A stretch of 25,542 nt of DNA, from positions 1 through 25,542 of IMG/VR virus record IMGVR_UViG_3300046007_011665. One strand, 5' to 3'. The notes under the pieces were generated by a model. The model saw only the letters and a list, made by a program, of their open reading frames with translations, had not been told where the DNA came from and searched no databases. Shown here piece by piece: positions 711 through 25,542 of the stretch (its first letter is position 1; each line of letters opens with the position of its first letter). Source of the DNA: a virus. A program made the translations under genes and the position numbers.

Positions 711-720
711 GTCCTATTTT
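697..720. terminator. Bidirectional intrinsic terminator between convergent genes
   Basis: A 7-bp perfect stem AGGACCT / AGGTCCT with loop GTTAT lies at 697-715. It is followed on the plus strand by ATTTTATTTT. On the minus strand it is followed by a C and then a run of T (complement of the A run at 689-695). It sits exactly between the plus-strand GNAT reading frame, whose stop lies inside the hairpin, and the convergent minus-strand gene ending at 719, so it can serve both. Confidence 0.75.
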
Positions 721-1918
721 ATTTTAAATTTTCTCTTAATAAATTTTTAATTAATTTTTTTTGAGATTCATTAATTTCTTTGTAAGGTATTACACTTATA
801 ACCCAATTAAAATTATTTGTCCCACCTCTTTTTATTTCTTTAAACGTTGAATTTTTAGCTTTTATATTTTTTAACCTATCCTCTAAATTACCAGAATCAT
901 CAAATAACAAAGAAATTTTATATATTTTAACGTCACCAGTTTTATATGATACTGTATAGTTTTTCATATCCACATTAATAGAATTAACATCAATATAAAT
1001 GTCTTTTGTTTCTGCGTTTAATTTGTCTCTTAAATCATTAATATCGGTACCAGTAATTTGTTCTATGTTTTGATTATTTGTTGTATTTTTATCATCAGAA
1101 GAAACAAAAAAACTTTGTTTATAAGATATTGTATTACCATTTATTTTGAATGAAATTTCAATTGAATCATCGACTTGTTTAGCAATACCACCATAATGAT
1201 TTTCTAATCTACCAATCAAACCATTTATTTGATTATCATGTCTTTGAGCATAATTAGAACCAATAGAACCTCTAGTTGTAAAATGCGTATAAGCTATTCC
1301 ATCTACAGATTGAACAATATCGCAAGACGCTTTGGTTATAATTTTATCACCTTGTACATATGTTCTTACTTGTATATTAGCAACATCTGGTTTATTTCCG
1401 TTTTTTACTTGGTTTTTTAATTCGTCTTCAACTCTTTTTGCAAAATCATCTTGTAATCTATTTGAACCTAATACACCATGAACTAAATCTAAATCTGGAT
1501 TTGATATTGGTTGAGAACCTCCAATGGATACTTTAGCTAAAACCTTTTGTGTTTGTGTTTGACTTATCGGTGTTATGTCTGAACCTTTGGCTATCTGAGG
1601 GTTACCCAATAAACTTAAACCCAATGAGGCTGCGGCTATAGACTTTTTTATACCTTCATTAGTTTCTTCTTTACCATTTTCCCATTTTTTATTTGCTTCT
1701 TTTTCCATTTTCCCTAGTCTATCGTAATAGTCTGGAAATTCTGTTATATGGTCCATAGCAATTTCTTTGGCTTTTTCTTTATCGTCGGTATGTTCCGATT
1801 CAATTTTAACACCCTTTTTTAATTGTGCTTGTATTTTATCTAGCGATACGTTGAATTTATTAGCGATGTCTTGTAATGACATATTATCTGATTTACCACC
1901 TTTTATTGTGTTTTTCAT
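719..1918 (-). CDS. Hypothetical virion-associated protein with N-terminal DUF5661-like domain
   Basis: This is a 399-residue protein. Residues about 13-75 resemble DUF5661: a short helix-turn-helix-like start (LQDIANKFNVSLDKIQ), then GVKIESEHTDD and AMDHITEFPDYYDRL, a conserved His/Asp/Tyr-rich signature of unknown function. Residues 87-89 read NEG, followed by a hydrophobic Ala/Leu/Gly stretch (about 93-106). The rest is a mixed alpha/beta region I do not recognise. The C-terminus NLLRENLK matches the LLRE motif in the two genes upstream. The start at 1918 lies 3 nt after the stop of the previous gene, so the three minus-strand genes are probably one transcript running toward the terminator at 697-720. 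It could be an internal head or tail protein; I infer this from context only. Confidence 0.6.
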   Translation of the reverse strand: MKNTIKGGKSDNMSLQDIANKFNVSLDKIQAQLKKGVKIESEHTDDKEKAKEIAMDHITEFPDYYDRLGKMEKEANKKWENGKEETNEGIKKSIAAASLGLSLLGNPQIAKGSDITPISQTQTQKVLAKVSIGGSQPISNPDLDLVHGVLGSNRLQDDFAKRVEDELKNQVKNGNKPDVANIQVRTYVQGDKIITKASCDIVQSVDGIAYTHFTTRGSIGSNYAQRHDNQINGLIGRLENHYGGIAKQVDDSIEISFKINGNTISYKQSFFVSSDDKNTTNNQNIEQITGTDINDLRDKLNAETKDIYIDVNSINVDMKNYTVSYKTGDVKIYKISLLFDDSGNLEDRLKNIKAKNSTFKEIKRGGTNNFNWVISVIPYKEINESQKKLIKNLLRENLK

Positions 1919-1921
1919 AGT

Positions 1922-2722
1922 TTATAATCTGTTTTGCATTTGTTGCGTTAATTTATCACCAAATTTTATTTTTTCTGATATTGGCGTAAAAATACCTGTT
2001 ATTAATTCCGCTGTCGCACCTATTGTATTAAACCAATCAAAAATTTGTTTAATATCTTTAGCGCTTGGTACTAAAGCAACCAATTGTTTAAAAAGATTCA
2101 TTTTACTCTCAAACATTTTCATAAATTCTTCGTTAAAAAATTTTGATGTGTTAACTAATATTGGGTCAACATATGTTTTTACAGCATAACTTAATAGCAA
2201 ACTAATTCCAGATACCAATATAAAACCTTTCCACCCATCATAACTTACTAACTTATTTACTATATTTGTAACTTTATCTAAAAAACCTTTTAGATATGTT
2301 GCTATGTTTGTTAGATTAATAGTCTTTAAAAAATTAGTTATTTTTGTAGTTAAATATTTTAACTCAGTGTTTAAATTTTTTTTAGCTAAAAAGATAGCTG
2401 TTTGTAATTTTTTAGGGTTGATTATTATATCTTTAATTAAAATCATTACATCATAAACATTTTTAACTGTTTCTGCAACTTTATCGTATTTATCTTTCAA
2501 AAAAGTTTTAATAGAATCTACAAAAGTTTCATATAATAACTGTTCATTTATTATTTGTTTTCTAATCGAAAGTGAATAACCTTCATTCAAAGGTATTGTA
2601 ATACCTAAAACATTTTTAACATACGTTGAATTTTCTATCATCATCAACGAATGTTTTGATAATAACAGTTTCTTATCGTTTAACGCGATTTCTTCCCTTA
2701 ATAATTTTTTAGTACTATACAT
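1922..2722 (-). CDS. Hypothetical helical protein with one hydrophobic segment
   Basis: This 266-residue protein is rich in Leu, Ile and Lys and mostly helical by composition. It begins MYSTKKLLREEI, containing the LLRE motif, and has PLNEGYSL at about 44-51 and IINEQLLYE at about 58-66, both of the hydrophobic-x-E type repeated in the structural genes here. Residues about 166-183 (GFILVSGISLLLSYAV) form one probable membrane-spanning segment, and a second, weaker hydrophobic stretch is near 235-247. No enzymatic motif is visible. The start codon overlaps the end of the upstream metallopeptidase gene by 8 nt (ATGTATAG), so translation is probably coupled. A virion-carried internal or membrane-interacting protein is possible, but I cannot name a family. 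Confidence 0.55.
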   Translation of the reverse strand: MYSTKKLLREEIALNDKKLLLSKHSLMMIENSTYVKNVLGITIPLNEGYSLSIRKQIINEQLLYETFVDSIKTFLKDKYDKVAETVKNVYDVMILIKDIIINPKKLQTAIFLAKKNLNTELKYLTTKITNFLKTINLTNIATYLKGFLDKVTNIVNKLVSYDGWKGFILVSGISLLLSYAVKTYVDPILVNTSKFFNEEFMKMFESKMNLFKQLVALVPSAKDIKQIFDWFNTIGATAELITGIFTPISEKIKFGDKLTQQMQNRL

Positions 2723-3482
2723 AATCTTCTGGGTGGAGCCTACCCCATTTTCTCATTATTATTCCAGCCAACGAATTAGCTTCATTTTCAATTGGACTTC
2801 CATCAGCACCATCTTTTTCCGTATCAGTTAAACGGCCATCTAAATTTTGTTTATGATGAACTAGTTCATGAGCGATTGAACGCATAATATCGATTTTGGC
2901 TCTATCCTTTACATATACTTTAACCCTACGGTCGTCGTTGTGATAATACGCCGTTGTTCTTAAATCTGGTGTTTTTTCGAAAGCTAGTTCAACTTTTACA
3001 TCGTCATTGATACCTAACAACTCTTTAGCAAAATTAACGAAATCTGATACGTTTAAAACGTCATCTTCTTTCTTTGTCATCAACCCTTCTCTAAGTAGAG
3101 TTTTAATCATTGGTTTAAGGTTTTCTTTCATACCAGCTTTTTTTGGTAAACGAATCATTGTGTCGCGATACTCATAGTTTTTATTATACCCAGTGTTCAT
3201 TTTAAATCCAAATTTTTTATAAAATTGGATTAATTGGTTTACACCAACTCCGTCTATATTATCTGGTGTTAATGTTGCTATTTTATTATTATCGTCCGCA
3301 TATTTAACTAAATCGGTCATTACTTTTGTACCAATTTTAAGGTTGTTACCGTAATTGCTTTTTTTATATCTATACTCTGGTTTAACTTTAATCATAGATA
3401 ATTTTAAACTAGAATTAGTTTCATAGATATCTAATTGGTCTAGGTAATCACCATATTTTTCTATTAATATATCTTCTATCAT
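2715..3482 (-). CDS. GNAT-like domain fused to a zinc metallopeptidase (HExxH)
   Basis: The protein has 255 residues and two domains. Residues about 1-112 look GNAT-like: MIKVKPEYR strand, a degenerate cofactor loop near 40-55, and QLIQFYKKFGFK at 83-94, typical of the last part of the GNAT fold. Residues about 145-250 are a small zinc peptidase: HELVH at 205-209 (H205, E206, H209), with a likely third ligand in IENEAN (E232 or E234). They are joined by a linker with KTLLREGLM at 127-135, a hydrophobic-x-E-G motif that could be a processing site. I chose the start at 3482 because it begins a coherent GNAT strand and follows the TATTTATA motif; an upstream ATG at 3509 lies inside the terminator hairpin. 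Substrates are unknown. Metallopeptidase identity is likely, GNAT identity moderate. Confidence 0.7.
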   Translation of the reverse strand: MIEDILIEKYGDYLDQLDIYETNSSLKLSMIKVKPEYRYKKSNYGNNLKIGTKVMTDLVKYADDNNKIATLTPDNIDGVGVNQLIQFYKKFGFKMNTGYNKNYEYRDTMIRLPKKAGMKENLKPMIKTLLREGLMTKKEDDVLNVSDFVNFAKELLGINDDVKVELAFEKTPDLRTTAYYHNDDRRVKVYVKDRAKIDIMRSIAHELVHHKQNLDGRLTDTEKDGADGSPIENEANSLAGIIMRKWGRLHPEDYV

Positions 3483-3485
3483 ACA

Positions 3486-3493
3486 TATAAATA
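3486..3493 (-). promoter_or_regulatory. Late-promoter-like motif TATTTATA (minus strand)
   Basis: Read on the minus strand the sequence is ATATTTATATGTATG, with TATTTATA 3 nt before the start codon at 3482. It matches the element found before several other genes, but the spacing is much shorter than the usual 10-17 nt. If it is used, the mRNA would be leaderless or nearly so. It also directly abuts the T-tract of the clpC terminator, so one transcript would stop where the next begins. This is the weakest member of the motif set. Confidence 0.35.
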
Positions 3494-3494
3494 T

Positions 3495-3522
3495 AAAAAA
3501 AACCCACAAAATTTGTGGGTTT
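3495..3522 (-). terminator. Intrinsic terminator of the clpC-like gene
   Basis: A perfect inverted repeat, AAACCCACAAA and its complement around one central base, spans 3500-3522. On the minus strand it is followed by a run of eight T. It lies just after the stop of the clpC-like gene (3531). This separates clpC transcription from the metallopeptidase operon downstream. Confidence 0.85.
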
Positions 3523-12829: not shown

Positions 12830-13942
12830 ATGGAAAGAAATTTTAAAATTAATCCAATTGGTCTTAAAGGAAATGAAATAAATGAACGTATGAAACAACT
12901 TATGGGTATGACACCTATGAATGAAGGTTTATCGCGTTCAACTGTTGAGTTAACAAAAATTGGCCCAGATGGAAAAACATATGGTATTGTAAGAGAAAAC
13001 CATGAATATTACATTAAAGTATCTGATAAAACTTCAAACCTTACTGTTGAAGATTTTAAATATATTGGTGGTTTACAGAATAAAAAACAAGAAGCTTATC
13101 CATCATACGCTAAAGCTACTAAACACTTGAATTTAAAATTCAATTCTATTTGCGAATCATATGATATTGTGAATACTTTTAACGTATTTGTTGATGATAA
13201 ATTATTATCAGAAGGTGCAGCTAAAGAAGCTACAAAACACATTACAGATACCAAAGGTAAAGACTTAGATGCTAAGGCTAAAGAAGAAGGTGGTGATAAC
13301 TTGGCTGGTAAAAAAGTCATGGATGAAATGGAAGAAGTAACACTTACTGAAGATGAGTTAGCTATTGATGCGATGCTTAATGAAATGGAAGAATTAGAAG
13401 AAGAAGAATCTAAAGATAACCCATGGGCTATCTGTACTGCTAGTGTTGGTCGTAAAGACAAAGAAAAATACGAAGCATGTGTTAGAGACGTTAAAAAAGA
13501 AAAAGGTATCAAAGAAGAATTAAAAGGTAACCAATCAAAAATTGATGCCAATAAAAACGGTAAAATTGATGGTGAGGATTTTAAAATGCTTAAAAAAGGT
13601 AAAGTTAAAGAAAATTTTGGTATAGAACCAGAACAAGAACCAACAACTGATGAGTTAATGGATAGATTGGATAATATGTCAGCAGCTGAATTTATTGAAT
13701 TATTAGGCGATGCTGGTAAAGATGTTATGCAATTTGCTAAAAGAAAAATTGAAGCTGGGACTAAATTTATGTTAAATAAAATGGGTCACGAAGTTGATGA
13801 AGCTAAAGACTTCCCTGATTTAACAGGAGATGGTAAAGTAACTAGAGCTGATATTTTAAAAGGTAGAGGTGTTGATTTAGATGAAGAAATGACTATTGAG
13901 GAAATTCAAGAAGCTATTGCTGATTTAAAAAAAAAACTTTAA
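12830..13942 (+). CDS. Mosaic virion protein with two EF-hand/dockerin-like loops (N-terminal part)
   Basis: The direct reading is 370 residues. The order is: MTPMNEGLSR at 27-36, a hydrophobic-x-E-G motif; a region (about 38-125) rich in strands; LLSEGAAKE at 125-133; an acidic helix (about 163-195); DNPWAICTASVGRKD with KYEACVRDVKK (197-223), a Cys motif I associate with phage structural proteins; an EF-hand-type loop DANKNGKIDGED (239-250); and a second loop DLTGDGKVTRAD (330-341). Both loops fit calcium binding. The frame ends at 13942 just after an A10 run; the adjoining frame continues with TLTEGKKYKLKLDNPAP, so the true product may be one protein of about 857 residues ending at 15402. 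An internal head or core protein is likely. Confidence 0.7.
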   Translation: MERNFKINPIGLKGNEINERMKQLMGMTPMNEGLSRSTVELTKIGPDGKTYGIVRENHEYYIKVSDKTSNLTVEDFKYIGGLQNKKQEAYPSYAKATKHLNLKFNSICESYDIVNTFNVFVDDKLLSEGAAKEATKHITDTKGKDLDAKAKEEGGDNLAGKKVMDEMEEVTLTEDELAIDAMLNEMEELEEEESKDNPWAICTASVGRKDKEKYEACVRDVKKEKGIKEELKGNQSKIDANKNGKIDGEDFKMLKKGKVKENFGIEPEQEPTTDELMDRLDNMSAAEFIELLGDAGKDVMQFAKRKIEAGTKFMLNKMGHEVDEAKDFPDLTGDGKVTRADILKGRGVDLDEEMTIEEIQEAIADLKKKL

Positions 13943-15402
13943 CTGAAGGTAAAAAATACAAACTGAAGTTGGATAATCCAGCGCCAGCGGCTCCTGCCGT
14001 TCCTGCGCCTGCTCCAGCTGAACCAATAACAGAACCAGCTGATGACGCTGGTTTTGGCGATTTTGGTGGTAATGAAACACCAGCAGAAGAACCAGCAAAT
14101 GATATGCCGTTTGATAAAGAACCTTTTGATGCTGGTGTTGATGCCGATGAGGAAACTGACCCTAAAAAATTTATTGAGCAATTGAGTGGTAAATTGGGTC
14201 AATCTCTTAGACAATACACCAAGGACCAAGGTCAACCAGATTTTGAGTTAGAAAAATTTGCTATTAACTCAGTAATATCAGCTACACATACAGCTGAAAT
14301 GGATGAAGAAGATAAAAACGATATTATTAAAAAGATAAATAAATCAGGTGAAAATGACACACAAGATTTTGATGGTGACAATCAAGGTGATGCCGATGGT
14401 GGAGACGATTCTTTCGGTGGACCCGATAACGGGGATGGTGGTTCTGGTGAGCTTGATTTTTCATCACGTGAAGAAGATATTAAAGAAAGTAAATTTATGC
14501 TTGATAAACCTAAAAAACTAAGCATTTTTGCACCTGAAGGTAGTGAGGAATTTATGGAAGAAAATAGAATAAATGAAAACCATGGTGAGTCTAACAATTA
14601 CATGTTTTGGCAAAACCTTAAAACATTGGTACACGCAGGTTCTGAATTGTTAAAAATGGAATGCGACCAAGTTGATACATTATTATCTGATGGCCATGGA
14701 TGGGCGTTAGACCACATAGCAACTTCAGCTGATGATGTTGAAGAAGTATACCATTTTATTGAAGGGTCACTTAATGATTACCATAATGATTCTGAAGAAG
14801 AAATGGATTATTCAAAATGGGCGCAACCAATGAAATTAAATCAACCAGTTACTGTATCTAAAGACTTAGCTTATCACTTAACCAATGAAATTGCGTTAGG
14901 TGAATCTATTTTTAGATATGGTTCTGAAAAATTCCAAACTCTTGTTAAAGAAGTAAGACAATTAAAAAATAAAGGGCTTATTGATTTGAATGAGAACGAC
15001 CAATTCATTGTTGAGGATTATGACAATGGTTTTATTGTAATTGATGAAAACAGAGTTAAATTAAATACTATATTTGAAGAGTTTGATACTGAGACTTTAA
15101 CTGAAGCTGAATATCAAGGTAAAAAAGTTGAAATAGGTAAACCTAAGCGTGGTGGTTCTAAAAAGTTCTATGTTTATGTAAGAAACCCTAAGACGGGTAA
15201 AGTTAAAAAAGTGTCTTTCGGAGCTAAATCTGGTGGTGGTAATTTAGCAGTTAAATTAAAAGACCCTAAGGCTAGAAAAGCATTTGCTGATAGACATAAT
15301 TGTAAAACTAAAAATGATAAAACAAAACCAGGTTATTGGGCATGTCGTTTGCCTCGTTATGCTAAACTATTAGGATTATCAGGTGGCGGTACTTGGTGGT
15401 AA
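13936..15402 (+). CDS. C-terminal part of the mosaic virion protein, in -1 frame from A10
   Basis: This is 488 residues if joined by a -1 shift at the A10 run (13927-13936). It has no ATG near its beginning; the earliest candidate is a TTG at 13969. It starts TLTEGKKYK, then a Pro/Ala-rich linker (APAAPAVPAPAPAEP), then KKFIEQLSGKLGQSLRQY and FAINSVISATH, a helical domain I know from myovirus structural proteins, then a Gly/Asp-rich linker, RINENHGES, and a YMFWQNLKTLVHAGSELLKM helical section. The C-terminus (KKVEIGKPKRGGSKKFYVYVRN...ADRHNC...GYWACRLPR) is a basic Cys-containing module common in T4-like phages. Module boundaries often carry x-N-E or x-T-E motifs (TLTEAEYQ before the last module). 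Frameshift origin is unresolved. Confidence 0.65.
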   Translation, partial: TLTEGKKYKLKLDNPAPAAPAVPAPAPAEPITEPADDAGFGDFGGNETPAEEPANDMPFDKEPFDAGVDADEETDPKKFIEQLSGKLGQSLRQYTKDQGQPDFELEKFAINSVISATHTAEMDEEDKNDIIKKINKSGENDTQDFDGDNQGDADGGDDSFGGPDNGDGGSGELDFSSREEDIKESKFMLDKPKKLSIFAPEGSEEFMEENRINENHGESNNYMFWQNLKTLVHAGSELLKMECDQVDTLLSDGHGWALDHIATSADDVEEVYHFIEGSLNDYHNDSEEEMDYSKWAQPMKLNQPVTVSKDLAYHLTNEIALGESIFRYGSEKFQTLVKEVRQLKNKGLIDLNENDQFIVEDYDNGFIVIDENRVKLNTIFEEFDTETLTEAEYQGKKVEIGKPKRGGSKKFYVYVRNPKTGKVKKVSFGAKSGGGNLAVKLKDPKARKAFADRHNCKTKNDKTKPGYWACRLPRYAKLLGLSGGGTWW

Positions 15403-15415
15403 TAAATTTATAACT

Positions 15416-17539
15416 ATGAAACCATATAAAGAAGAAAAACAAGGTAATATAATAAGACGAACATTTTCAGACAACGTGCCTGAGAGTGAGTTGATATGGC
15501 ATAGAGACCACGAGGATAGAGTTGTTTTGCCTTTAAATGAAAATGATTGGTCAGTTCAATTTGATAACGAGTTACCAAGAAAACTTGTAGTTGGTGAAGA
15601 ATATTTTATCCCTAAGAATGTTTATCATAGAGTTATTAAGGGTAATGGTGATTTAATGGTTGAAATTATTGAAACCAATTTTGATGACGATGCATATGAA
15701 ATATATGAAGTTATTGAAGAGGGTAAAAAGAAAAAAAAGAAAAAGAAAAAAGACGCATGTTACCACAAAGTAAGGTCTAGATATGATGTATGGCCTAGTG
15801 CCTACGCTTCAGGTGCTCTTGTTAAGTGTCGTAAGGTTGGTGCAGCTAATTGGGGGAATAGTTCAAATGAATCTGTTAATGAAGTTATTACTTCAGAAGA
15901 ACCAAAAGCAGAGGTGGATACATTTTTAACTAGAAGTTTAAATTCTTTAAGTAGATTTATTTACGGTAAAGATGTTGTTGATTTTATGAATAAATTAAAA
16001 AACATCGCAAAATTTGATAACTTTACTTTAAAATTATCAAAGGGTAGTGAGGGTGCTAATCAATTTATTATTGAAATTTTAGATGGAAATAATAAAGTTG
16101 GTAAATTTGTTGCTTTTATTTATACAGACAAAGAAACTAGAAACCAAAATTTACAAATACAAAAAGTTGAAATATATCCAGAATATAGGGGTAAGGGTAT
16201 AATGAGAAAATTTTATCAAGAGTTTAATGAATGGTTGAAAGACAATTTAAATAATTTTGATAAATTCACATCTGATTTTATTTTCCTATATAACAAAGAA
16301 ACAGGTAAGTATGATGGTTTTAATATGTGGGAAGATTTAGTTAAAAAAGGTCTAGCTAAAAGATTAGGACCAGATAGTGATTATATACCACCTACCACCC
16401 CACCAAAAAATGGTATGTGGAGCATTAATTCTGGATATGCTTTAAATGAAGTTATTGAAGAAAAATGGTCTAGCGATTATAAAAAAAGTATTGATTGTAA
16501 TAACCCTAAAGGGTTCAGTCAAAAAGCTCATTGTGATGCTAGAAAGAAAAGACAAAGAGGTGAAGAAACTAAATCTAAACCAATAAATGAAAACGTATCA
16601 GAAATTAGTCGTATTGTAAATCAATATATGAAAGATACTGAATACGATATTCAAAATAGTTTAGGTAATTGTTCTTTTTTTACTAGAGATATGATTAATT
16701 GGGCAAAGAATAATGGTATAAAATCAGATTATGTTTATATGCCAATGAGTGAAGAATACAGAAAAGAAAACAATATTTCTGATAATGAATGGGAAGACCA
16801 TATAGTACCAATGATTAATGGTGTTATCATTGATTTTGCTTATACACCTCAAGGTGTTTCTAAGAACGTTAGAACTAAAAATACAATACCACCAAGAATT
16901 TTTAAATATAGTGATAATTTATTTAAACCAAATGGTATATATGGAAAATTTGGATATACAAAACCAGAAATTAATACAGAATATGGAAACCCAAAAGATA
17001 TAAATTCTTTTGATGTTGTTAAACCTAATAAGAAAAAAGAAGATTTAGGTGAATTATCTATTTATGAAGCAAAAAAAACTGATTTCTCAAAAGAAAAAAG
17101 CAAAGGACTTCATGGATGGTTTGAGAGACAGGGTGGTAAGGGTAAATCAAAAGGATGGGTTGATTGTAACACATGTAGAAAAGACCCTGATACTGGTAGA
17201 AAAAAATGTAAAACATGTGGAAGAAAAGATGGTGAGGAAAGAGCTAAATATCCAGCTTGTAGACCTACACCATCAGCTTGTGGTACAAGAGGTAAGGGCA
17301 AGAAGTGGGGTAAAAAAACTTCTAATGAAGGGTTGAATATGTCAGAAAATTTTAGTATCTTTGATAAAAATTATCTAAAAATGAAATTAAACGAAACTTT
17401 TAACTATGAAGAACCGTTAGTATTACCAGCGGAGCCTAAAACAAAACCCAAAGAATCACCTATGATTCAACCGTCTAGACGTAATAAACCTTTCTTACCA
17501 GAAAGAGAATCACAACCAGACCCAAAAGCTGAAGAATAA
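15416..17539 (+). CDS. Multidomain virion protein: cupin-like, GNAT-like, papain/transglutaminase-like and Cys-rich modules
   Basis: At 707 residues, at least six modules can be read. (1) Cupin-like at about 10-88: WHRDHEDR (28-35) and FIPKNVYH (64-71). (2) Lys-run and DACYHKVRSRYDVWPSAYASG (113-133). (3) GNAT-like at about 165-318 with YRGKGIMRKF (257-266). (4) SIDCNNPKGFSQKAHC (358-373), a recurring phage motif. (5) A cysteine-peptidase or transglutaminase-like fold at about 395-530 with a plausible triad Cys419 (LGNCSFF), His462 (WEDHIVP), Asp473 (IIDFAY). (6) A basic Cys-rich module at 556-635 (CNTC, CKTCG, CRPTPSAC). Modules are separated by x-N-E motifs (SVNE, ALNE, INEN, SNEG). The start at 15416 avoids overlap with the previous stop; an in-frame upstream start at 15383 is less likely. 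No single function can be assigned; proteolytic release of modules in the head is a hypothesis. Confidence 0.7.
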   Translation: MKPYKEEKQGNIIRRTFSDNVPESELIWHRDHEDRVVLPLNENDWSVQFDNELPRKLVVGEEYFIPKNVYHRVIKGNGDLMVEIIETNFDDDAYEIYEVIEEGKKKKKKKKKDACYHKVRSRYDVWPSAYASGALVKCRKVGAANWGNSSNESVNEVITSEEPKAEVDTFLTRSLNSLSRFIYGKDVVDFMNKLKNIAKFDNFTLKLSKGSEGANQFIIEILDGNNKVGKFVAFIYTDKETRNQNLQIQKVEIYPEYRGKGIMRKFYQEFNEWLKDNLNNFDKFTSDFIFLYNKETGKYDGFNMWEDLVKKGLAKRLGPDSDYIPPTTPPKNGMWSINSGYALNEVIEEKWSSDYKKSIDCNNPKGFSQKAHCDARKKRQRGEETKSKPINENVSEISRIVNQYMKDTEYDIQNSLGNCSFFTRDMINWAKNNGIKSDYVYMPMSEEYRKENNISDNEWEDHIVPMINGVIIDFAYTPQGVSKNVRTKNTIPPRIFKYSDNLFKPNGIYGKFGYTKPEINTEYGNPKDINSFDVVKPNKKKEDLGELSIYEAKKTDFSKEKSKGLHGWFERQGGKGKSKGWVDCNTCRKDPDTGRKKCKTCGRKDGEERAKYPACRPTPSACGTRGKGKKWGKKTSNEGLNMSENFSIFDKNYLKMKLNETFNYEEPLVLPAEPKTKPKESPMIQPSRRNKPFLPERESQPDPKAEE

Positions 17540-17952
17540 TGGAAGAATTATATTTGATATATGTAAACTATGTTGGTAAAGATTATAAGGGTGATTACCT
17601 TTATGAATTTATATTTTCTGACACTACAGAAGATATAGATGGTGATGAGTGGGATACATACCCAGCTTCTGGAAGACCACAACCACCGCATGATTCTTTT
17701 ATAAAAAAAGTTGGTAGACTTGAATCTGAGTTAAAATTAGATGTGATACAAAATAGTGACACATTTGCAGTTTGGGATGCTATTGATGGTGTAGTTGCTT
17801 TGGCTTGGGAAAATATTGACGATTATGACACGTATCCAGAAAAAAGAATTTGTTTTAAATTTGGTGAAGATTTATCTGAAGTTGAAGATAAATTATACGA
17901 AAAAGACCTAATATTGAATTATAATATAAACAAACATGAACACAAAAAATAA
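17539..17952 (+). CDS. Hypothetical protein
   Basis: The protein has 137 residues, strongly acidic and Tyr/Asp-rich (DTTEDIDGDEWDTYPASG; WENIDDYDTYPEKR), with a beta-rich N-terminus (YLIYVNYVGKDYKGDYLYEFIFSD). Its ATG shares the A of the upstream TAA, and its 3' end overlaps the next start by 17 nt, so it is embedded in the structural operon. No known domain recognised. Confidence 0.6.
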   Translation: MEELYLIYVNYVGKDYKGDYLYEFIFSDTTEDIDGDEWDTYPASGRPQPPHDSFIKKVGRLESELKLDVIQNSDTFAVWDAIDGVVALAWENIDDYDTYPEKRICFKFGEDLSEVEDKLYEKDLILNYNINKHEHKK

Positions 17953-18880
17953 ATTAAAAGAAGCTACATATATTGTCGCATCACCTAATGATGCTCAGAC
18001 AATGGCTGGTACTAATAAATTAAAAAAAGACGACACTGTTATTATTGATAAAGCAGCGTCTGCTAAAAGTGCATCTTCAGCTTTGGTTGGTGAGATTGAC
18101 AATGTAATTCAACCTCAAGATAGAGCAACGATAAAGTACTTATCAAATGTAAAAGATGCTGAATCTGGACAAATAGCTCAACCATTTAACCTTGGTGATA
18201 AAAAATACCAAATGGTAAGAGGTATAACACCAGATAAAAATGTAGTCATGGGTGTTTATTGTTTTGATGAATTAAATGAAGATGGTAGTAACATGATTTA
18301 CCATGTTGATGAATTTGAAAGTAAAATAGCTAGACCAATGCTTGAAATGGAAAAATTAACTACTGAAAGTGAAAATAAAAGTACTGAACCTGAAAGCCTT
18401 AATTTAGGTGAATTTAAACATTTTATTGTAAGCGAAAAAACTGGTAAATTTAAAAAATTTAAAACAATCCCAGAATTGGCCGCTACTACTATGCTTGAAG
18501 ATGAGAGATATATGGGGTTACATGAATTTAAAAAATTCTTTGAAAGTAGAGTGTTTGGTGCGCCTAAGAAAAAAGACTTAAGTGAAGTTGGGTTGACTGG
18601 CCAAGAAAGTGATGAAGAAATGACTATTAAAGCTAAAAAATTAATGGGTCTTATCCAAAAAAGAATTCCAGCAACTATCATAGAGAGCATTAAAACAAAC
18701 AAGTTGGCACAAAGAGAAGTTATCGCTGCATTTGCTGAAATGATTGGAGTCCCTAGAAATGGGCTTACTGGGTTAGTCCAAGGTATTAAAGATTTAGCTA
18801 AAACTGGTTCACAACCACAACAGCAACCAGTTATGGAAAATAGAGTAATAAAAACTATAAAGAAAAAAGACATAAAGTAA
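17936..18880 (+). CDS. Hypothetical structural protein
   Basis: This 314-residue protein lies in the structural block, starting inside the end of the gene before and ending 3 nt before the gene after. The N-terminal half is mixed and carries KYQMVRGITPDKNVVMGVYCFDE (broken here by strands); the middle has EFKHFIVSEKTGKFKKFKTI; the C-terminal part is helical (EEMTIKAKKLMGLIQKR; LAQREVIAAFAEMIG) with a Gln-rich linker and a basic tail (KTIKKKDIK). No cleavage-type NEG motif is obvious. I do not recognise a named family; neighbours suggest a virion or prohead protein. Confidence 0.55.
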   Translation: MNTKNKLKEATYIVASPNDAQTMAGTNKLKKDDTVIIDKAASAKSASSALVGEIDNVIQPQDRATIKYLSNVKDAESGQIAQPFNLGDKKYQMVRGITPDKNVVMGVYCFDELNEDGSNMIYHVDEFESKIARPMLEMEKLTTESENKSTEPESLNLGEFKHFIVSEKTGKFKKFKTIPELAATTMLEDERYMGLHEFKKFFESRVFGAPKKKDLSEVGLTGQESDEEMTIKAKKLMGLIQKRIPATIIESIKTNKLAQREVIAAFAEMIGVPRNGLTGLVQGIKDLAKTGSQPQQQPVMENRVIKTIKKKDIK

Positions 18881-18883
18881 TAT

Positions 18884-20152
18884 ATGAGCAATTACAGAAA
18901 AATAGCTGAACAAGCATTATTAAAATCACTAAACAGAAACAAATCAAAATTAAATGAAGGTGTTGTTTATGGTGATAATATAACAGAAAGAATGCACCCA
19001 CAGTTAGAACAAGAATTAGCTGAAAGAAAACACTCGTTAGGTAAACACCCAGCTATACCTGAGGGTGATGAAAATAACTTTGAACAAAAGATAATGGGTA
19101 AACGTTTCAGTGAAGTTGTTAACCGTTATAAACGCGCATTTGATGTTGATGAAATTGATAATACTCAACTAATGACACAAATGATGCCAATGGTTCACGA
19201 AACAATGGCTTTGGAAACTAAACACAAAAAAGACTTAGAAAAATTGGCTGAGAAAATGATTCGCGATGAGTATGATATGCCAGAAGATATTGTTGAGATA
19301 AAAGCTACTTTGTCACCTAAGATTTCGTTAGAGGGTACTAAAAAACACCCAACACCTAAATCTAATGATTTTCAATTTGAAAGCCATGAAGATATGGTAA
19401 ACGCAAAAGGTGAAATTTATAAAAGAAGATTTTTAAACGCAATGATTCAAGGTGCCGCGAAAAAAACAAATCATATGTTCCATATGGTTGATGATGAATT
19501 AACTAACATGGACCCAAGATTATTGAATCGTTATTCAAAAGTTATGTCGGCGGCTGATTATATGTATTATGTTATACCTAAGATGGATAACGGTACTAGT
19601 GGTGGTGTTGTTAAGGTGACGTTTCCAACCGCTGATAACCCTAAGGCTGTTATTGAAGCTGAAGCTATGATTTTCCCAGTACTTATTCATGAACTAGTTA
19701 AAGGTGTTATGGAATTGTTATCAGCACATGGTTTACCTAAAGATAAAAAGTTAGGTGATTATGTTGTTGATAAGGCAGATTTCTTATCAGCCGAACCATG
19801 GGATATGAGAATTGGACCAGCATTGTGGGATAGATTTACAGATTGTATTGATGCTGACGATTTTAATTTAAAACATCAATTGTACATGGAGTTAGCTTCT
19901 ATGCCAGTAAATGAATTCAATGAAAATATGAGAGAAATTTTAGCTGGTACAAACAAGGGTAAAAAAATGGTAAAAGAAATTATGGGTAGTGTTAAACAAG
20001 AACTACAAGAAGAAGAATTTGATAACGCTATGAATGAGTTAAATTCTAAAGAAGATAAAGATTATTACACATTAGATGAAATAATGTTTGGTAACGATAT
20101 TGAACTAGATGAGGACGATGATGATGTCTTCAATAGTGATGATTTATTCTAA
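18884..20152 (+). CDS. Hypothetical head-associated protein with acidic tail
   Basis: The protein has 422 residues. KLNEGVVYG at 23-31 is a hydrophobic-x-E-G motif near the N-terminus, suggesting that about 25 residues could be removed if it is a prohead-protease substrate. The body is helical with conserved-looking segments such as GVVKVTFPTADNPKAVIEAE and FPVLIHELVKGVMELLSAHG (HELVK lacks the second His, so it is not an HExxH peptidase). The C-terminus is very acidic (IELDEDDDDVFNSDDLF). It is the last gene of the block, 3 nt after the previous stop, and is followed by a strong terminator. Its place just before terminase suggests a head or tail-completion role. No family name can be given. 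Confidence 0.6.
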   Translation: MSNYRKIAEQALLKSLNRNKSKLNEGVVYGDNITERMHPQLEQELAERKHSLGKHPAIPEGDENNFEQKIMGKRFSEVVNRYKRAFDVDEIDNTQLMTQMMPMVHETMALETKHKKDLEKLAEKMIRDEYDMPEDIVEIKATLSPKISLEGTKKHPTPKSNDFQFESHEDMVNAKGEIYKRRFLNAMIQGAAKKTNHMFHMVDDELTNMDPRLLNRYSKVMSAADYMYYVIPKMDNGTSGGVVKVTFPTADNPKAVIEAEAMIFPVLIHELVKGVMELLSAHGLPKDKKLGDYVVDKADFLSAEPWDMRIGPALWDRFTDCIDADDFNLKHQLYMELASMPVNEFNENMREILAGTNKGKKMVKEIMGSVKQELQEEEFDNAMNELNSKEDKDYYTLDEIMFGNDIELDEDDDDVFNSDDLF

Positions 20153-21212: not shown

Positions 21213-22991
21213 ATGAGTTTTACAACGACCGAAATATTTAAAGAGTATTCTAAATGTCTTATGAATCCAGTTTATGCGATTGAGAATTATTTAGAAACTT
21301 TTGATAAAACACAAGAAGGATTTGTTCCTTTTAAATTATTTCCTAGACAAAAGGAAATTATAGGTGCATATGAAAAACATAGATTTAATTTAGTTACTAA
21401 ACCTCGACAAGCTGGGGTTTCGACTACAACCGCTGCTTATATGGCAATTAAAGTTGGTTGGGCTGATGAAGATAACCCAGAAGCTGTTTTGATTATTGCT
21501 AACAAGCAAGAATTAGCTTTTGAGTTTTTAGCTAAAATTAAAGACTTTTTATCTCAATTACCTAGATGGGTATGGGGTCACGAATACTACGGAAACCCTA
21601 AAAATGATGGTAAATCAATTTTCCTTACTGATTCTAAAAAAGAAATTAGGTTACCTAATGGTAGTCGTGTTAAAGCAGTTGCAACATCTAAAGATGCCTT
21701 GCGTGGTTTTACACCTACGTTTCTTATTATGGATGAGGCTGCTTATATTGACAATGGTGCCGAAGTATTTGGTGCCGCTCTTACAGCATTAGGTACTGGG
21801 GGTAGAGCAACACTTATTTCTACACCTAACGGAATGGATTCTTTATACTTCAAAACTTACGACCAAGCTAAAACAAAAAAGAACAACTTTAATATCATTG
21901 AAATGAAATGGTATGAGGATTTGCGTTATAATAAAGATTTAAGGTGGGTTAAGGGTGACGATGTAGAAAAAGAAATATATTTTTCATTTGAGTCTTACAC
22001 AGCTAGGATTGAAGATGGTTGGAAACCTACATCTACATGGTACGAGCAGATGTGTATGGGTATGAACAATGATGCGCGTATGATTGCTCAAGAGCTTGAT
22101 GTTTCATTTATAGGTTCTGGGGGTAATGTAATTAGTGAAGAATACATAGGTTTTCATGAAAAAAACAATGTGATTGAACCTAAGATAACGATGGGGCTTG
22201 AAAACGAAATCTGGATTTGGGAAGAACCACAAGCTGGTCATCAATATATAATGGGTGTCGATGTGTCTAGAGGTGATGGTGAAGATAGCTCTACGATAGT
22301 TATAATTGATTTCACTACTATGGAACAAGTCATGGAATATCAAGGTAAAATACAACCAGATTTATTAGCTCAAATAGCAGAAGAATACGGTGAGTTATAT
22401 GAAGCATATACTGTTGTCGATGTAACTGGAGGTATGGGTGTTTCAACTGTTCTTAAATTGTTGGAATTTAATTATAAGCGTTTGCATTATGATGATGCTA
22501 GTGGTAAAATATTATCAGCAAGACAAAGAGAGTTAACTAGTTATAATCAAAAGGATAAAATACCAGGGTTCCATGCCACAAATGTTCGTTTACCTATGAT
22601 TTCAAATTTAGAATATAAAATTAGAACCAACGCTGTTAAAATTCGTTCTAGTAGACTTGTTTCTGAAATGAAAACGTTTATTTATAAAAATGGTAGACCA
22701 GACCACATGGAAGGTTATCATGATGATTTACTTATGTCGTTAGCGATGTGTTTATGGGTTATGGAACATTCGTTTAAAAAATTAGAAAGACTAGAAAAAC
22801 AAAATAAAGCAATTTTAAATAGTTGGTTGAATGGAGCTACTTCAAGTAGTTCACCTACCGTAACAGAAAGAGACCAAAATACTGGTGTTGTGACAAAAGT
22901 AGTTAATACTAACCACCCAGCTTATAAAAACGTTCAAGACCCTAGAGGTCAATATTCGTGGTTATTTTCTAAACCAGCAAATATGAGGTAA
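21213..22991 (+). CDS. terL: Terminase large subunit (T4 gp17-like)
   Basis: At 592 residues it is close to T4 gp17 in length. The N-terminal ATPase has Walker A RQAGVST at 65-71, an adenine-type LFPRQKEII at 42-50, Walker B LIMDE at 171-175 and the coupling motif STPNG at 203-207. The C-terminal RNase H-like nuclease has GVDVSRGDG (Asp350), VVDVTGG (Asp403) and YHDDLLMS (Asp504/505), the expected three acidic positions. MIAQELDVSFIGSGGNV (290-306) is the usual link between the two domains. It packages DNA into the prohead through the portal encoded next. A Ser/Thr-rich tail follows from about 541. No small terminase was seen. Confidence 0.97.
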   Translation: MSFTTTEIFKEYSKCLMNPVYAIENYLETFDKTQEGFVPFKLFPRQKEIIGAYEKHRFNLVTKPRQAGVSTTTAAYMAIKVGWADEDNPEAVLIIANKQELAFEFLAKIKDFLSQLPRWVWGHEYYGNPKNDGKSIFLTDSKKEIRLPNGSRVKAVATSKDALRGFTPTFLIMDEAAYIDNGAEVFGAALTALGTGGRATLISTPNGMDSLYFKTYDQAKTKKNNFNIIEMKWYEDLRYNKDLRWVKGDDVEKEIYFSFESYTARIEDGWKPTSTWYEQMCMGMNNDARMIAQELDVSFIGSGGNVISEEYIGFHEKNNVIEPKITMGLENEIWIWEEPQAGHQYIMGVDVSRGDGEDSSTIVIIDFTTMEQVMEYQGKIQPDLLAQIAEEYGELYEAYTVVDVTGGMGVSTVLKLLEFNYKRLHYDDASGKILSARQRELTSYNQKDKIPGFHATNVRLPMISNLEYKIRTNAVKIRSSRLVSEMKTFIYKNGRPDHMEGYHDDLLMSLAMCLWVMEHSFKKLERLEKQNKAILNSWLNGATSSSSPTVTERDQNTGVVTKVVNTNHPAYKNVQDPRGQYSWLFSKPANMR

Positions 22992-23040
22992 TAACTATTT
23001 AATTTTACAATAAATTTAATATATTAAAATAAAAAATACT

Positions 23041-25113
23041 ATGGCAAAAGATAATTTAACAATATTTCAAAAATTAAACAGAGTTGTTAACCCTGATTAT
23101 AATCCACCACAAAAACAAACAACACAAAGATTTAATTTGGGTGGTAATGAGTTGCTTAAAACTACTAGCAAACAAGAATATGAAACAGCAAAATTACAAG
23201 CTCAACAAAACAAGTATTTACAAAGTACTTGGAAACGTGTTGAAAATGGTTTGTTTCAACAATCTATAAATTACGAAACTACACGTGTTGGTTCTTACGC
23301 TGATTTTGAAGCCATGGAATTTTACCCAACAATCGCAGCCGCTCTAGACGTAATGATGGAAGAATCAACAACTGTTAATGACAGAGGTAGAGTTCTTAAC
23401 ATTTATTCTGATAGTAAGCGTGTTAAGGGTATCCTAGAAGATTTATTCTTTAACCGTTTGGATTTACATACTACATTGCCTATGTGGACAAGAAATACAT
23501 GTAAATACGGTGATAATTTTGTTTATTTGAATATCAACGATAGACAAGGTATTATTTCCGCAAAACAAATGCCTAACTACGAGATAGAACGTAGAGAAGC
23601 TGGTTTATATGATTTAGTTAGCGGTAGAGAATATTCTGACGACCAATCTGAAAATAGAGATAGAGTTAAATTTTACTGGAGAGGGCGAGACGTTGAATTT
23701 AATTCATGGCAAATTGCACATTTTCGTTTGTTAGGTGATGACAGACGTTTACCATACGGTACCAGTGTTTTAGAAAAAGCTAGACGTATTTGGAAACAAC
23801 TTATCTTATCTGAAGATTCAATGCTTGTATATCGTGTTACTAGAGCTCCAGAAAGACGTGTTTATAAAATATATGTAGGTAACATTGATGACGCTGATGT
23901 TGAACAATATGTAAACGCTATTGCTGATAGATTTAAGCGTATGCCAATTGTTGACCCTCAAACTGGTCAAATTGATTTAAGATATAATCAGCTTTCTAAT
24001 GACCAAGATTTCTTTATTCCAGTTAGGGATGAAAGCGCGCCTAACCCAATTGATACGTTGCCTGGTGCTTCAAACTTAGACCAAATTGCAGATATTGAAT
24101 ACTTACAGAGAAATTTATTTACAGCATTGCGAGTACCAAAACCATTTTTAGGTTTTGAAGAAGCAACTGGAGAGGGTAAAAATCTTGCTTTACAAGATAT
24201 TCGTTTTTCGAGAACAATTAACCGTATTCAACAATCTATGTTACAAGAACTAAATAAATTAGCAATTATTCATTTATTCTTATTAGGTTTTGAAGATGAT
24301 TTGGATAACTTTACACTTACGTTAAATAACCCATCTACACAAGCTGAAATGCTTAAGGTTGAACATATGCAAGTAAAAGTTTCACTAGTTAAAGATTCTG
24401 TATCTGATATTGGTAACGGATTTGGTGTTATGTCATGGACTAGAGCTCATAGAGATATATTGGGTTGGTCTGACGATGAAATTAAACAAGATTTACTAGA
24501 ACAACGAATGGAAAAAGCAGCATCCGCTGAATTACAAAATACATCAGCTGTTATTAAACATACTGGTATGTTTGACGCTGTTGATAAAATATATGGTGAT
24601 TACCAAGCAGCTCTTAAAGGTGCTCAAGGTGGTGATGAAGCTGGCGCTGAAGGCGGCGGTGGAGGTGGTAGCTTTGGAGGCGGCGGTGGAGGCGGCTTCG
24701 GAGGTGGTGGTCTAGGTGGTGAAGATTTAGACTTTGGAGCAGAAGCTGGTGGTGAAGACGCAGAAGCTGGTGGTGGTGATTTAGATTTTGGAGCAGAAGC
24801 TGGTGCAGAAGAACCTGCGGCTGGAGCTGAGACAACACCTGATGCTGGTACAACACCTGAAACACCAGAAGGGTTATCGGAATCATTAAATAAAACACAA
24901 AAACTTTTAAGTGAACAAAAAATAAAATTAGAAAACCAATTAAAAGTAAGGGCTGAAAAATATCAAAAAAGATTTGTTGATGTGTTGGTAGAGTCGGTTA
25001 AAAAAAATGACAAAGAACATGATGTTAGAGTTAAAATTTACGATAAAAACGTAAAGATTAACGAAGATGTTAATAATATGATAAATGACATAAATAAAAT
25101 GTTAGATGAATAA
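23041..25113 (+). CDS. Portal protein (T4 gp20-like) with Gly-rich C-terminal extension
   Basis: The protein has 690 residues. The portal body covers about 1-525, with segments typical of gp20-like portals (MWTRNTCKYGDNFVYLNI; FNSWQIAHFRLLGDD; TGEGKNLALQDIRFSRTINRIQ, which lies in the stem region). It forms the dodecameric ring at the packaging vertex and binds TerL, encoded 50 nt upstream. From about 530 to 600 the chain becomes Gly/Ala/Glu-rich with a repeated DLDFGAEAG, unlike T4 gp20. The last 90 residues are a charged helix that starts with EGLSESL, a hydrophobic-x-E type motif. No TATTTATA motif precedes it, so it is probably read from the terL transcript. Confidence 0.9.
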   Translation: MAKDNLTIFQKLNRVVNPDYNPPQKQTTQRFNLGGNELLKTTSKQEYETAKLQAQQNKYLQSTWKRVENGLFQQSINYETTRVGSYADFEAMEFYPTIAAALDVMMEESTTVNDRGRVLNIYSDSKRVKGILEDLFFNRLDLHTTLPMWTRNTCKYGDNFVYLNINDRQGIISAKQMPNYEIERREAGLYDLVSGREYSDDQSENRDRVKFYWRGRDVEFNSWQIAHFRLLGDDRRLPYGTSVLEKARRIWKQLILSEDSMLVYRVTRAPERRVYKIYVGNIDDADVEQYVNAIADRFKRMPIVDPQTGQIDLRYNQLSNDQDFFIPVRDESAPNPIDTLPGASNLDQIADIEYLQRNLFTALRVPKPFLGFEEATGEGKNLALQDIRFSRTINRIQQSMLQELNKLAIIHLFLLGFEDDLDNFTLTLNNPSTQAEMLKVEHMQVKVSLVKDSVSDIGNGFGVMSWTRAHRDILGWSDDEIKQDLLEQRMEKAASAELQNTSAVIKHTGMFDAVDKIYGDYQAALKGAQGGDEAGAEGGGGGGSFGGGGGGGFGGGGLGGEDLDFGAEAGGEDAEAGGGDLDFGAEAGAEEPAAGAETTPDAGTTPETPEGLSESLNKTQKLLSEQKIKLENQLKVRAEKYQKRFVDVLVESVKKNDKEHDVRVKIYDKNVKINEDVNNMINDINKMLDE
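24628..24840 (+). repeat. Low-complexity Gly/Ala/Glu-coding stretch in the portal gene
   Basis: This segment is rich in GGT, GGC and GAA codons and markedly more GC-rich than its surroundings. At protein level it repeats DLDFGAEAG twice, about 19 residues apart, within poly-Gly. It is likely a flexible linker, and a site prone to expansion and contraction. Confidence 0.7.
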
Positions 25114-25157: not shown

Positions 25158-25542
25158 ATGCAAAATTTTGGAAAAATAAAAAACGCTTTTAGTGAAATAA
25201 TTGCAGAAGGGATAGTTTCAAACGATGAATCTAAAAAGATACTCTTCAAAAAATATATAAAAACACTTAGAGAAAACAAAGCGTTAAAAACACAATTTTT
25301 GGTTTACGAAAATATCGAAAATAAAATTGAATCTAATAGAGAAAAAGCTACAGAATTTGTTAAAGAAAATATAGCTTTATTAAACCAATTTTCAAAAAAA
25401 GAATTACAAGAAGCTAATTTAAAGTTAGCTAAACCAATTTTATTTGAAGATAATTCTGTGGTTTCTAATGATACTGAAAAGTTACATGAGGATATTTCTA
25501 AATTAATTTTTACCGAAAGAAGTCCTAAGAATATTGATATCC
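25158..25542 (+). CDS. Partial gene after portal, possible prohead core protein
   Basis: 128 codons are visible before the window ends. The product is helical, Lys/Glu-rich and without cysteines (MQNFGKIKNAFSEII...). It contains SEIIAEGIVSN at about 12-22, another hydrophobic-x-E-G motif, which would put a cleavage point near residue 17. In T4 the gene after the portal is gp67, a small prohead core protein, and this position and composition fit that role. It has its own late-type motif at 25135. The name is inferred from synteny only. Confidence 0.6.
   Translation, partial: MQNFGKIKNAFSEIIAEGIVSNDESKKILFKKYIKTLRENKALKTQFLVYENIENKIESNREKATEFVKENIALLNQFSKKELQEANLKLAKPILFEDNSVVSNDTEKLHEDISKLIFTERSPKNIDI

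Follow-up and report, generated by a model that had tools for sequence, protein, structure and literature searches.

Mosaic genes next to the terminase of a metagenomic phage as candidate cassette polyproteins of a T4-type head-cargo system

We analyzed a 25,542-nucleotide virus record (IMGVR_UViG_3300046007_011665; here called the window) and, within it, a block of unknown genes, g1 to g6, that occupies positions 12830-20152 on the plus strand. Our analysis indicates that this block is probably part of a T4-type head-cargo system that has been expanded into cassette polyproteins and many tagged enzymes; for the phage of the window, the cutting, packaging, injection, and scaffold binding that such a system would entail are steps that we infer from sequence. 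The evidence comes from short motifs consisting of a hydrophobic residue, any residue, and glutamate (hydrophobic-x-E, or hxE), which lie at module borders in the block, and from a peptide tag of the form MKxxIKxLLRE↓ found genome-wide at N-terminal, internal, and C-terminal places (arrows mark known or putative cuts). The tag, the strongest part of the case, was absent from the first-pass annotation of this DNA. Our main relative for comparison was G001, a 306-kb contig in which the first 440 portal residues are 100% identical to those of the window portal; the best named matches of that portal are Microcystis phage Mel-JY01 and Flavobacterium phage immuto (36-39% identity). The records are metagenomic and possibly fragments, and gene starts come from a simple caller.

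Glutamate motifs in the block

The first-pass annotation had proposed hydrophobic-x-E-G motifs as the signature of module borders. The motifs that it named in the block are present (PMNEG, with MNEG at 12917; LSEG at 13205; SNEG in g3; ALNE at 16442; SVNE at 15875; and KLNEG, with LNEG at 18950), apart from TLTEG, which reads TLTED in g1 and TLTEA in g2 (15097), and all of those that it placed elsewhere were found (PLNEG, TNEG, and LLREG in the minus-strand genes, GLSE in the portal, and IAEG after 25158). We compared motif counts with composition-preserving shuffles of the same proteins, taking as the window block the nine gene calls that start at 12-20 kb, and found hxE followed by G, A, S, N, or T 33 times versus 17.3 expected (z 4.0), an about 2-fold excess. 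The corresponding block of G001 gave 30 versus 15.1, its head-core genes 33 versus 16.1, and its tagged proteins 47 versus 28.7, with a general mild excess in the tail genes (209 versus 172) and the rest of the genome (390 versus 341; z 2.9), so that the fold excess was 1.6 in tagged proteins, 1.2 in tail genes, and 1.1 in the rest. The form with asparagine, hydrophobic-N-E-[GASNT], was more sharply confined: it occurred 8 times versus 1.1 expected in the window block (z 6.6) and 8 versus 0.9 in the G001 block, and was near expectation in the tail genes (15 versus 13.9) and the rest (28 versus 23.8). Control motifs were not enriched in the window block (hydrophobic-E-x, 13 versus 17.6; hydrophobic-x-D, 13 versus 14.3; hydrophobic-x-K, 18 versus 20.1).

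The literal E-G form in the window block was not significantly enriched (6 versus 4.0 expected), and NEG across the whole of G001 fell below expectation (18 versus 28.1). We therefore rejected x-E-G and NEG as signatures and concluded that the signal is hxE before a small residue, not E-G. The original observation is thus partly confirmed.

The same pattern appears in genes of the head. In the family capsid protein, LL[TS]E lies near residues 57-60, with A, S, T, G, or N as the next residue, in 14 of the 14 N-termini printed (21 distinct), and a narrower form of the site pattern fits 17 of the 21 distinct N-termini; the likely protease site of the capsid protein therefore resembles the block motif. 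A core-like gene, only the start of which lies in the window (25158..25541, plus strand; the window end cuts the gene), reads MQNFGKIKNAFSEIIAE↓G, with a tag-like peptide at 25188-25208, and [IVL][ILVM]xE↓G was found in this gene in 14 of the 14 sequences printed, of 44. A skeptical account would be that Glu-rich proteins hold many hxE triplets by chance and that the border pattern reflects selection by eye: the motif is a short one, the regular expressions were settled on after inspection of the data, and the literal E-G form lacks enrichment. We disfavor this account and give it scarcely any weight, given the shuffles and control motifs described above, the tag counts in G001 (14 versus 0.41 expected), the lack of N-terminal excess in crAss001 and N4, which have no S77 match, and the association of a tag with virion proteins in the published S-CREM2 proteome, all of which are set out below.

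Modules and their borders

Gene g1 (12830..13942; 370 amino acids [aa]; all block genes are on the plus strand) comprises an N-terminal part ending MNE↓G, an NPWAIC module, and a dockerin/EF-hand-like Ca motif; it is acidic and has hxE sites at 12917, 13205, 13328, 13604, and 13793. Gene g2 (13969..15402; 477 aa; phrog_7595) runs from an acidic N terminus through an SNNYMFW module and LTE↓A (15097) to module D, and both g1 and g2 have many acidic stretches. The SNNYMFWxNLK module of g2 (about 70 aa) is present in one or two copies, depending on the relative. Gene g3 (15383..17539; first ATG at 15416), the cassette polyprotein in which module exchange among relatives was seen, begins with a part that is cupin-like by eye, followed by IEE↓G, module A (WPSAYASGALVKC), VNE↓, and a GNAT-like cassette, whose Pfam match is just below the cutoff. 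It continues with LNE↓, module B (WSxDYKKSIDC), INE↓, a Cys-containing cassette, IYE↓, and the Cys-rich module C, and ends with MSE↓, the tag KNYLKMKLNE↓TF, and a Pro-rich tail. The glutamate of the IYE↓A site before module C (17060..17068) is invariant in a 13-sequence alignment, and the internal tag (17366..17395) reads KNKIKNMLRE↓TF and KTQIKSILRE↓TF in relatives. Gene g5 (17936..18880; 314 aa) has KLKE↓ near its N terminus, and g6 (18884..20152; 422 aa) has LNE↓G at 18950. Modules A, C, and D lie in strongly basic segments (net charges of +11, +15, and +21, the last over the 98 aa of module D), which fits proteins sitting with DNA.

Relatives whose g3 is at least 75% identical to the window g3 at both ends differ by whole inserted modules, in agreement with the earlier description of the block as a mosaic of small modules. 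Defining junctions as clusters of clean insertions of at least 25 aa in pairwise alignments of distinct relatives, we obtained 72 junction clusters from g1, g2, g3, g5, and g6 and zero from g4. An hxE ended no more than 3 residues from the junction in 41 of the 72, versus 19.6 expected (binomial p 1e-7), which supports the earlier placing of the motifs near module borders; by gene, the counts were 20/28 for g1, 9/20 for g2, 3/11 for g3, 7/11 for g5, and 2/2 for g6. Comparison junctions, several of them intein-like inserts, were close to hxE in 0 of 4 cases in the terminase large subunit (TerL) and 1 of 6 in the portal.

A view that does not depend on gap placement was obtained from the distinct strings of 22 residues upstream of each module. 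An hxE was present in 17/17 strings before module C (KKTDFSKEK..GLHGWF; 12 ungapped clusters farther upstream), 16/16 before module A (10 clusters), 11/12 before module B (10 clusters; the twelfth string has AxE), and 28/28 before module D (7 clusters). In the 13 strings listed for the site immediately preceding module C, hxE was followed by A, G, or T in every case. Both the junction and the upstream-string counts come from kindred sequences, some of them from loci on the same contig, and the clusters of the upstream strings are ungapped, so that these counts are not fully independent. If the borders are indeed protease sites, the modules would be exchangeable between phages as cassettes.

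Some modules also occur apart from the block. Module B is found in cyanophage-type contigs as a stand-alone 51-aa protein with a T4-like MK[TS][FY]xxF start; its MKTFKQFQE start had 46 occurrences in 80 fetched loci, the remainder being unmatched by the pattern used, and this conservation is partly built in because the query contained MKTFKQFQE. In immuto, A-like and C modules stand together in a 156-aa protein behind IIKEILSE. These two arrangements, together with the basic character of modules A, C, and D, argue against a reading that takes the block genes for structural proteins of the exterior or of the neck/tail, with no relation to head cargo, and the modules for surface or connector domains. 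That reading draws on the position of the block directly before TerL and portal, on the architecture of g4 and g6, which barely varies, and on the mild motif richness of the tail genes as well, and we consider it quite improbable. Some block genes nevertheless need not be cargo, since g4 gave zero and g6 two junction clusters. Homologues of g6 were found in 116 of the 136 loci fetched, a set that includes many retrieved by a g6 query; because it gave only two junction clusters, g6 is more likely a fixed component of the head or neck than a carrier of cassettes.

Two side observations concern individual modules. Module D is also present in roseophages, pelagiphages, Methylophilales phages, Tenacibaculum phage pT24, and immuto (23 records) and so travels beyond close relatives. 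In g3 of two relatives (L075:689-3259 and L135:6147-8612), a likely intein of about 278 aa splits module A exactly between WPSAYA and SGALVKC.

The MKxxIKxLLRE tag and the proteins that carry it

In G001, the string [LI]RE[GSEN][LI] occurred 15 times versus 1.6 expected, mostly near the starts of proteins that begin like MKxxIKxLLRE. The specific form of this N-terminal tag, a pattern that was set after inspecting the data, was found in 14 of the 419 G001 gene calls versus 0.41 expected (at most 2 in 100 shuffles), in 10 of 562 in G002 (0.58 expected), and in 5 of 674 in G004 (0.57 expected); the excess was weaker in immuto (4 versus 0.24), and there was no real excess in Mel-JY01 (1 versus 0.24). 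A loose N-terminal motif was in clear excess in G001 (39 versus 22.9), immuto (29 versus 12.2), and T4 (27 versus 14.2) and in weaker excess in Mel-JY01 (20 versus 12.5) and S-CREM2 (15 versus 8.6), and it showed no excess in two control phages without an S77 match, crAss001 (4 versus 6.1) and N4 (3 versus 2.7). In the window, the tag is N-terminal solely in a shortened form, in the minus-strand gene m2, and is C-terminal or internal in m1, m3, and g3.

Three minus-strand genes illustrate these placements. Gene m1 (719..1918) encodes DUF5661 together with a cassette of about 290 aa bounded by TNE↓G and INE↓S that is absent from the 109-aa G001 homologue, and the C-terminal tag KKLIKNLLRE↓NLK (KKLIKNLLRENLK; 728-757, minus strand). 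Gene m2 (1922..2722) starts MYSTKKLLRE↓EIALND, followed by PLNE↓G, and its G002 homologue starts MNNTRTLLRE↓EIALND. Gene m3 (2715..3509; likely start 3482) joins a GNAT-like domain to a domain with HELVHH, and the internal tag KPMIKTLLRE↓GL (3087..3116, minus strand) lies at the fusion junction, where KPxIKxLLRE is kept in 3 of 3 fused homologues; in G002, the peptidase-like part of m3 is a separate gene that starts MKQMIKQLLRE↓AI. An AlphaFold model of m3 built from three sequences (pLDDT 58.6) has the tag region as a helix, at low confidence. The fold of the GNAT half is weakly supported (Ard1, Foldseek probability 1.00, E 0.011; nothing at E ≤0.001), comparison of the weak model gave no support for the peptidase half, and m3 had no solved relative by sequence.

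We ran 20 tagged or candidate proteins against Pfam with its curated cutoff. Above the cutoff were a CCA-adding-type enzyme (PolyA_pol, E 2e-37; L160:3675-4847, equivalent to G001 203675-204847), a kinase and phosphodiesterase of the tRNA-repair type (AAA_33 and tRNA_lig_CPD; L160:13762-14700, equivalent to G001 213762-214700), and two G002 proteins with ART-PolyVal; the remaining 16 of the 20 had a weak Pfam match or none. Other tagged proteins look HExxH peptidase-, kinase-, and GNAT-like by eye rather than by family match. The tag stands on both the CCA-adding-type enzyme and the tRNA-repair kinase/phosphodiesterase, as though the phage delivered tRNA repair along with its DNA.

A published virion proteome allowed the association of such tags with virions to be examined in another phage. 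The available part of the S-CREM2 study lists, in its Table 3, 52 proteins found in virions of this T4-like cyanophage (PMC10665884). With gene calls of our own and the pattern [FYL]xxF[LIMFV]xE starting in residues 2-22, which follows the T4 peptide and was set after looking, the tag was present in 7 of the 52 virion-detected proteins versus 1 of 178 other genes (p 1.4e-4); a looser motif gave 8 of 52 versus 8 of 178 (p 0.012). The tagged virion proteins include the SAM hydrolase gp6 (MKDFDSFLEE), the kinase gp14 (VKRFDAFLTE), and the cytidylyltransferase gp154 (MKNFSSFLTE↓A), together with gp12 (LRFASFMAE↓A), gp13, gp136, and gp122, the last of which belongs to the baseplate and probably matches by chance. 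A polyprotein homologous to those of the block was also detected: gp160, found with 7 unique peptides (PMC10665884), reads LSE↓, a module C-like domain, LEE↓, module G (NCWPGYEKKGTKKMFGKEYNNC), ISE↓G, and module A. Separately, gp12 (L383:7704-10313), with its T4-type tag near the N terminus, is annotated as Cas9. The available text of PMC10665884 nowhere uses the phrase "capsid targeting sequence".

In G001 and immuto, a common protein of 104-109 aa (64% identical) keeps LLRE while the surrounding residues differ. This retention bears on an account in which head targeting by the tag is accepted but the multi-module proteins stay uncut, in the manner of polyvalent proteins, the hxE borders being flexible acidic linkers that tolerate recombination. 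Such an account would fit the polyvalent proteins that have been described, in the available sources, with ADP-ribosyltransferase (ART), GNAT, peptidase, and ParB-type domains, as well as the N4 virion RNA polymerase, which those sources describe as packaged without cutting, and the many acidic stretches of g1 and g2. We regard it as unlikely, since LLRE itself is kept where its surroundings change, since the family capsid protein has the same pattern of hxE before a small residue, and since the hydrophobic-E-x, -x-D, and -x-K controls lack enrichment in the block.

Proposed mechanism and comparison with known systems

In the cleaved-cargo reading that we favor, short amphipathic peptides with the spacing hydrophobic-x-x-hydrophobic-hydrophobic-x-E (type IKxLLRE) would bring cargo into the prohead, where the tag would presumably bind the scaffold core and the cargo would be enclosed. 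The S77 protease, once activated, would then cut after hxE, which would release the cargo from its tag and split g3, g2, m3, and other multi-module proteins into their individual modules. Tags and core peptides would leave the head, and the released modules (domains of the small basic Cys/Lys/Trp-rich, GNAT-like, peptidase-like, and other kinds) would remain with the DNA and accompany it into the next host, where enzyme cargo could act on the host immediately upon injection, as T4 Alt does.

The cleavage step presupposes a protease of the gp21 type. The window itself has no S77 match and ends before the place of the protease gene in relatives, where the first-pass annotation had expected a gp21-like gene to the right of 25542. 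Peptidase_S77 was found there, at 53563-54288 of G001, a few genes right of the portal, and was above the Pfam cutoff in 11 of 11 related records searched. The gene order after the G001 portal is the core-like gene, small genes, the S77 protease, a scaffold-like gene, and the capsid protein.

Among the closest known systems are the internal proteins and Alt of T4, which have a capsid targeting sequence that gp21 cuts, as it does the gp24 propeptide. The window's relatives share with T4 the phage-encoded S77 protease, and G001 also shares the short N-terminal propeptide with targeting hydrophobics and hxE. The spacing of MKxxIKxLLRE↓ is that of the T4 starts MKTYQEFIAE↓A (ipII/ipIII) and MAKINELLRE↓S (gp24). 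The prohead protease removes the first 10 residues of T4 gp24 (PMC9958956), and residues 4 and 7 of the T4 peptide are reported to serve targeting and residues 8 and 10 cutting (PMC9026906), according to the available parts of these papers. ART-type tagged proteins in the relatives recall T4 Alt, the prototype of packaged ARTs, which acts on the host at once after injection (PMC5512222, available part). In contrast to T4, there are more tagged proteins with other functions, the tag is also internal and C-terminal, its sequence is unlike that of the T4 internal proteins, and there are multi-module polyproteins with internal sites.

Polyvalent proteins of phages and conjugative elements (Iyer et al. 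2017, PMC5512222), as described in the available part of that paper, are likewise mosaics of effector-like domains thought to enter the host with the DNA. The domains here are GNAT-like and, in relatives, ART-PolyVal, along with HExxH-type and ParB-like domains by eye; no PolyVal family match was found among the 10 window proteins scanned. The 2-15 domains per polypeptide that characterize polyvalent proteins were found in g3 (by module exchange) and m3 (by gene fusion), mostly as domains without family matches. Here, unlike in polyvalent proteins, the borders resemble sites of the head protease, and many domains are encoded by tagged genes of their own. In phages of the SPN3US/phiKZ type, head proteins are processed after a short motif ending in E by gp245/gp175, and SPN3US gp53/gp54 start MANFVKSKLARESVE, much like the present tag and the most similar published peptide that we found outside T4; the protease there is diverged and has AXE specificity, and no swappable small-module polyproteins were seen in the available part of that report (PMC5694885). 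S-CREM2 is similar in that enzymes with tags and a polyprotein of three modules were detected in its virions, as far as the available part of the study goes (PMC10665884), and differs in that its tags are of the FxxFLxE type.

The tag may also bear a similarity to the encapsulation peptides of bacterial microcompartments.

These comparisons delimit what is new. The first-pass annotation had suggested polyproteins cleaved in the head as an undescribed cargo system. T4 already provides a known case of cargo loaded through a cleaved tag, so that the principle is not new. The cassette polyproteins bounded by apparent prohead-protease sites, and the MKxxIKxLLRE↓ tag family with its three placements and many enzymes, are new with respect to the literature searched; neither such polyproteins nor tags in these phages were found in literature searches that had subscription papers outside their scope. 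The suggestion of head-cleaved cargo gains from the resemblance of the border motifs to the capsid LL[TS]E↓ site and from the homologous polyprotein in S-CREM2 virions, and g4 and g6 need not be part of it.

Several observations weigh against the cleaved-cargo reading. The hxE motif is short, glutamate is common, and the motif patterns were set after inspecting the data; hydrophobic-x-D is itself mildly in excess outside the block (338 versus 291 in the rest of G001). The loose N-terminal motif was not significant in G002, G004, and S-PRM1 (z 1.2, 1.7, and 1.4). Taken alone, the junctions of g3 are not clearly above chance at 3/11 (null fraction 0.21), in part because gap placement is ambiguous, and the AlphaFold model of g3 (13 sequences; pLDDT 40.5) is too poor for comparing borders with folded domains. 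An hxE preceded module D in 6 of 18 contigs without a detected S77 versus 7 of 8 S77 contigs (p 0.015; 47 contigs, of which 21 were unparsed and dropped), a contrast that is weak because many contigs are fragments. Finally, the S-CREM2 authors caution, in the available part of their paper, that some soluble proteins might be contaminants (PMC10665884).

If the cleaved-cargo reading is true, head cargo injected at time zero would be predictable from sequence in uncultured T4-like giant phages, many unnamed small modules of aquatic phages would gain a place and a likely role, and anti-host effectors would spread in cassettes whose boundaries are cut sites of the head protease itself. A broader proposal, to which we give even odds, is that hydrophobic-x-x-hydrophobic-hydrophobic-x-E↓ in N-terminal, C-terminal, or interdomain position constitutes a general T4-like cargo code that marks at least a dozen proteins per phage, with cassettes swapped as ready-made cargo; the cargo would then include tRNA-repair enzymes, kinases, acetyltransferases, peptidases, and ADP-ribosyltransferases.

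Neighboring genes

Two landmark genes on the plus strand follow the block: TerL (21213..22991), assigned by eye and from its place ahead of the portal, which matches the annotation of immuto and Mel-JY01, and the T4-type portal gp20 (23041..25113). In relatives (L001-L136), TerL and portal carry insertions of 226-456 aa at three TerL and three portal places, likely inteins, which mostly begin with C and end in N or similar; the window genes at 21213-25113 are without them. On the other side of the window, a gene for a ClpA/ClpB-type AAA+ chaperone, named by eye (3531-6032, minus strand), adjoins the minus-strand cargo-like genes.

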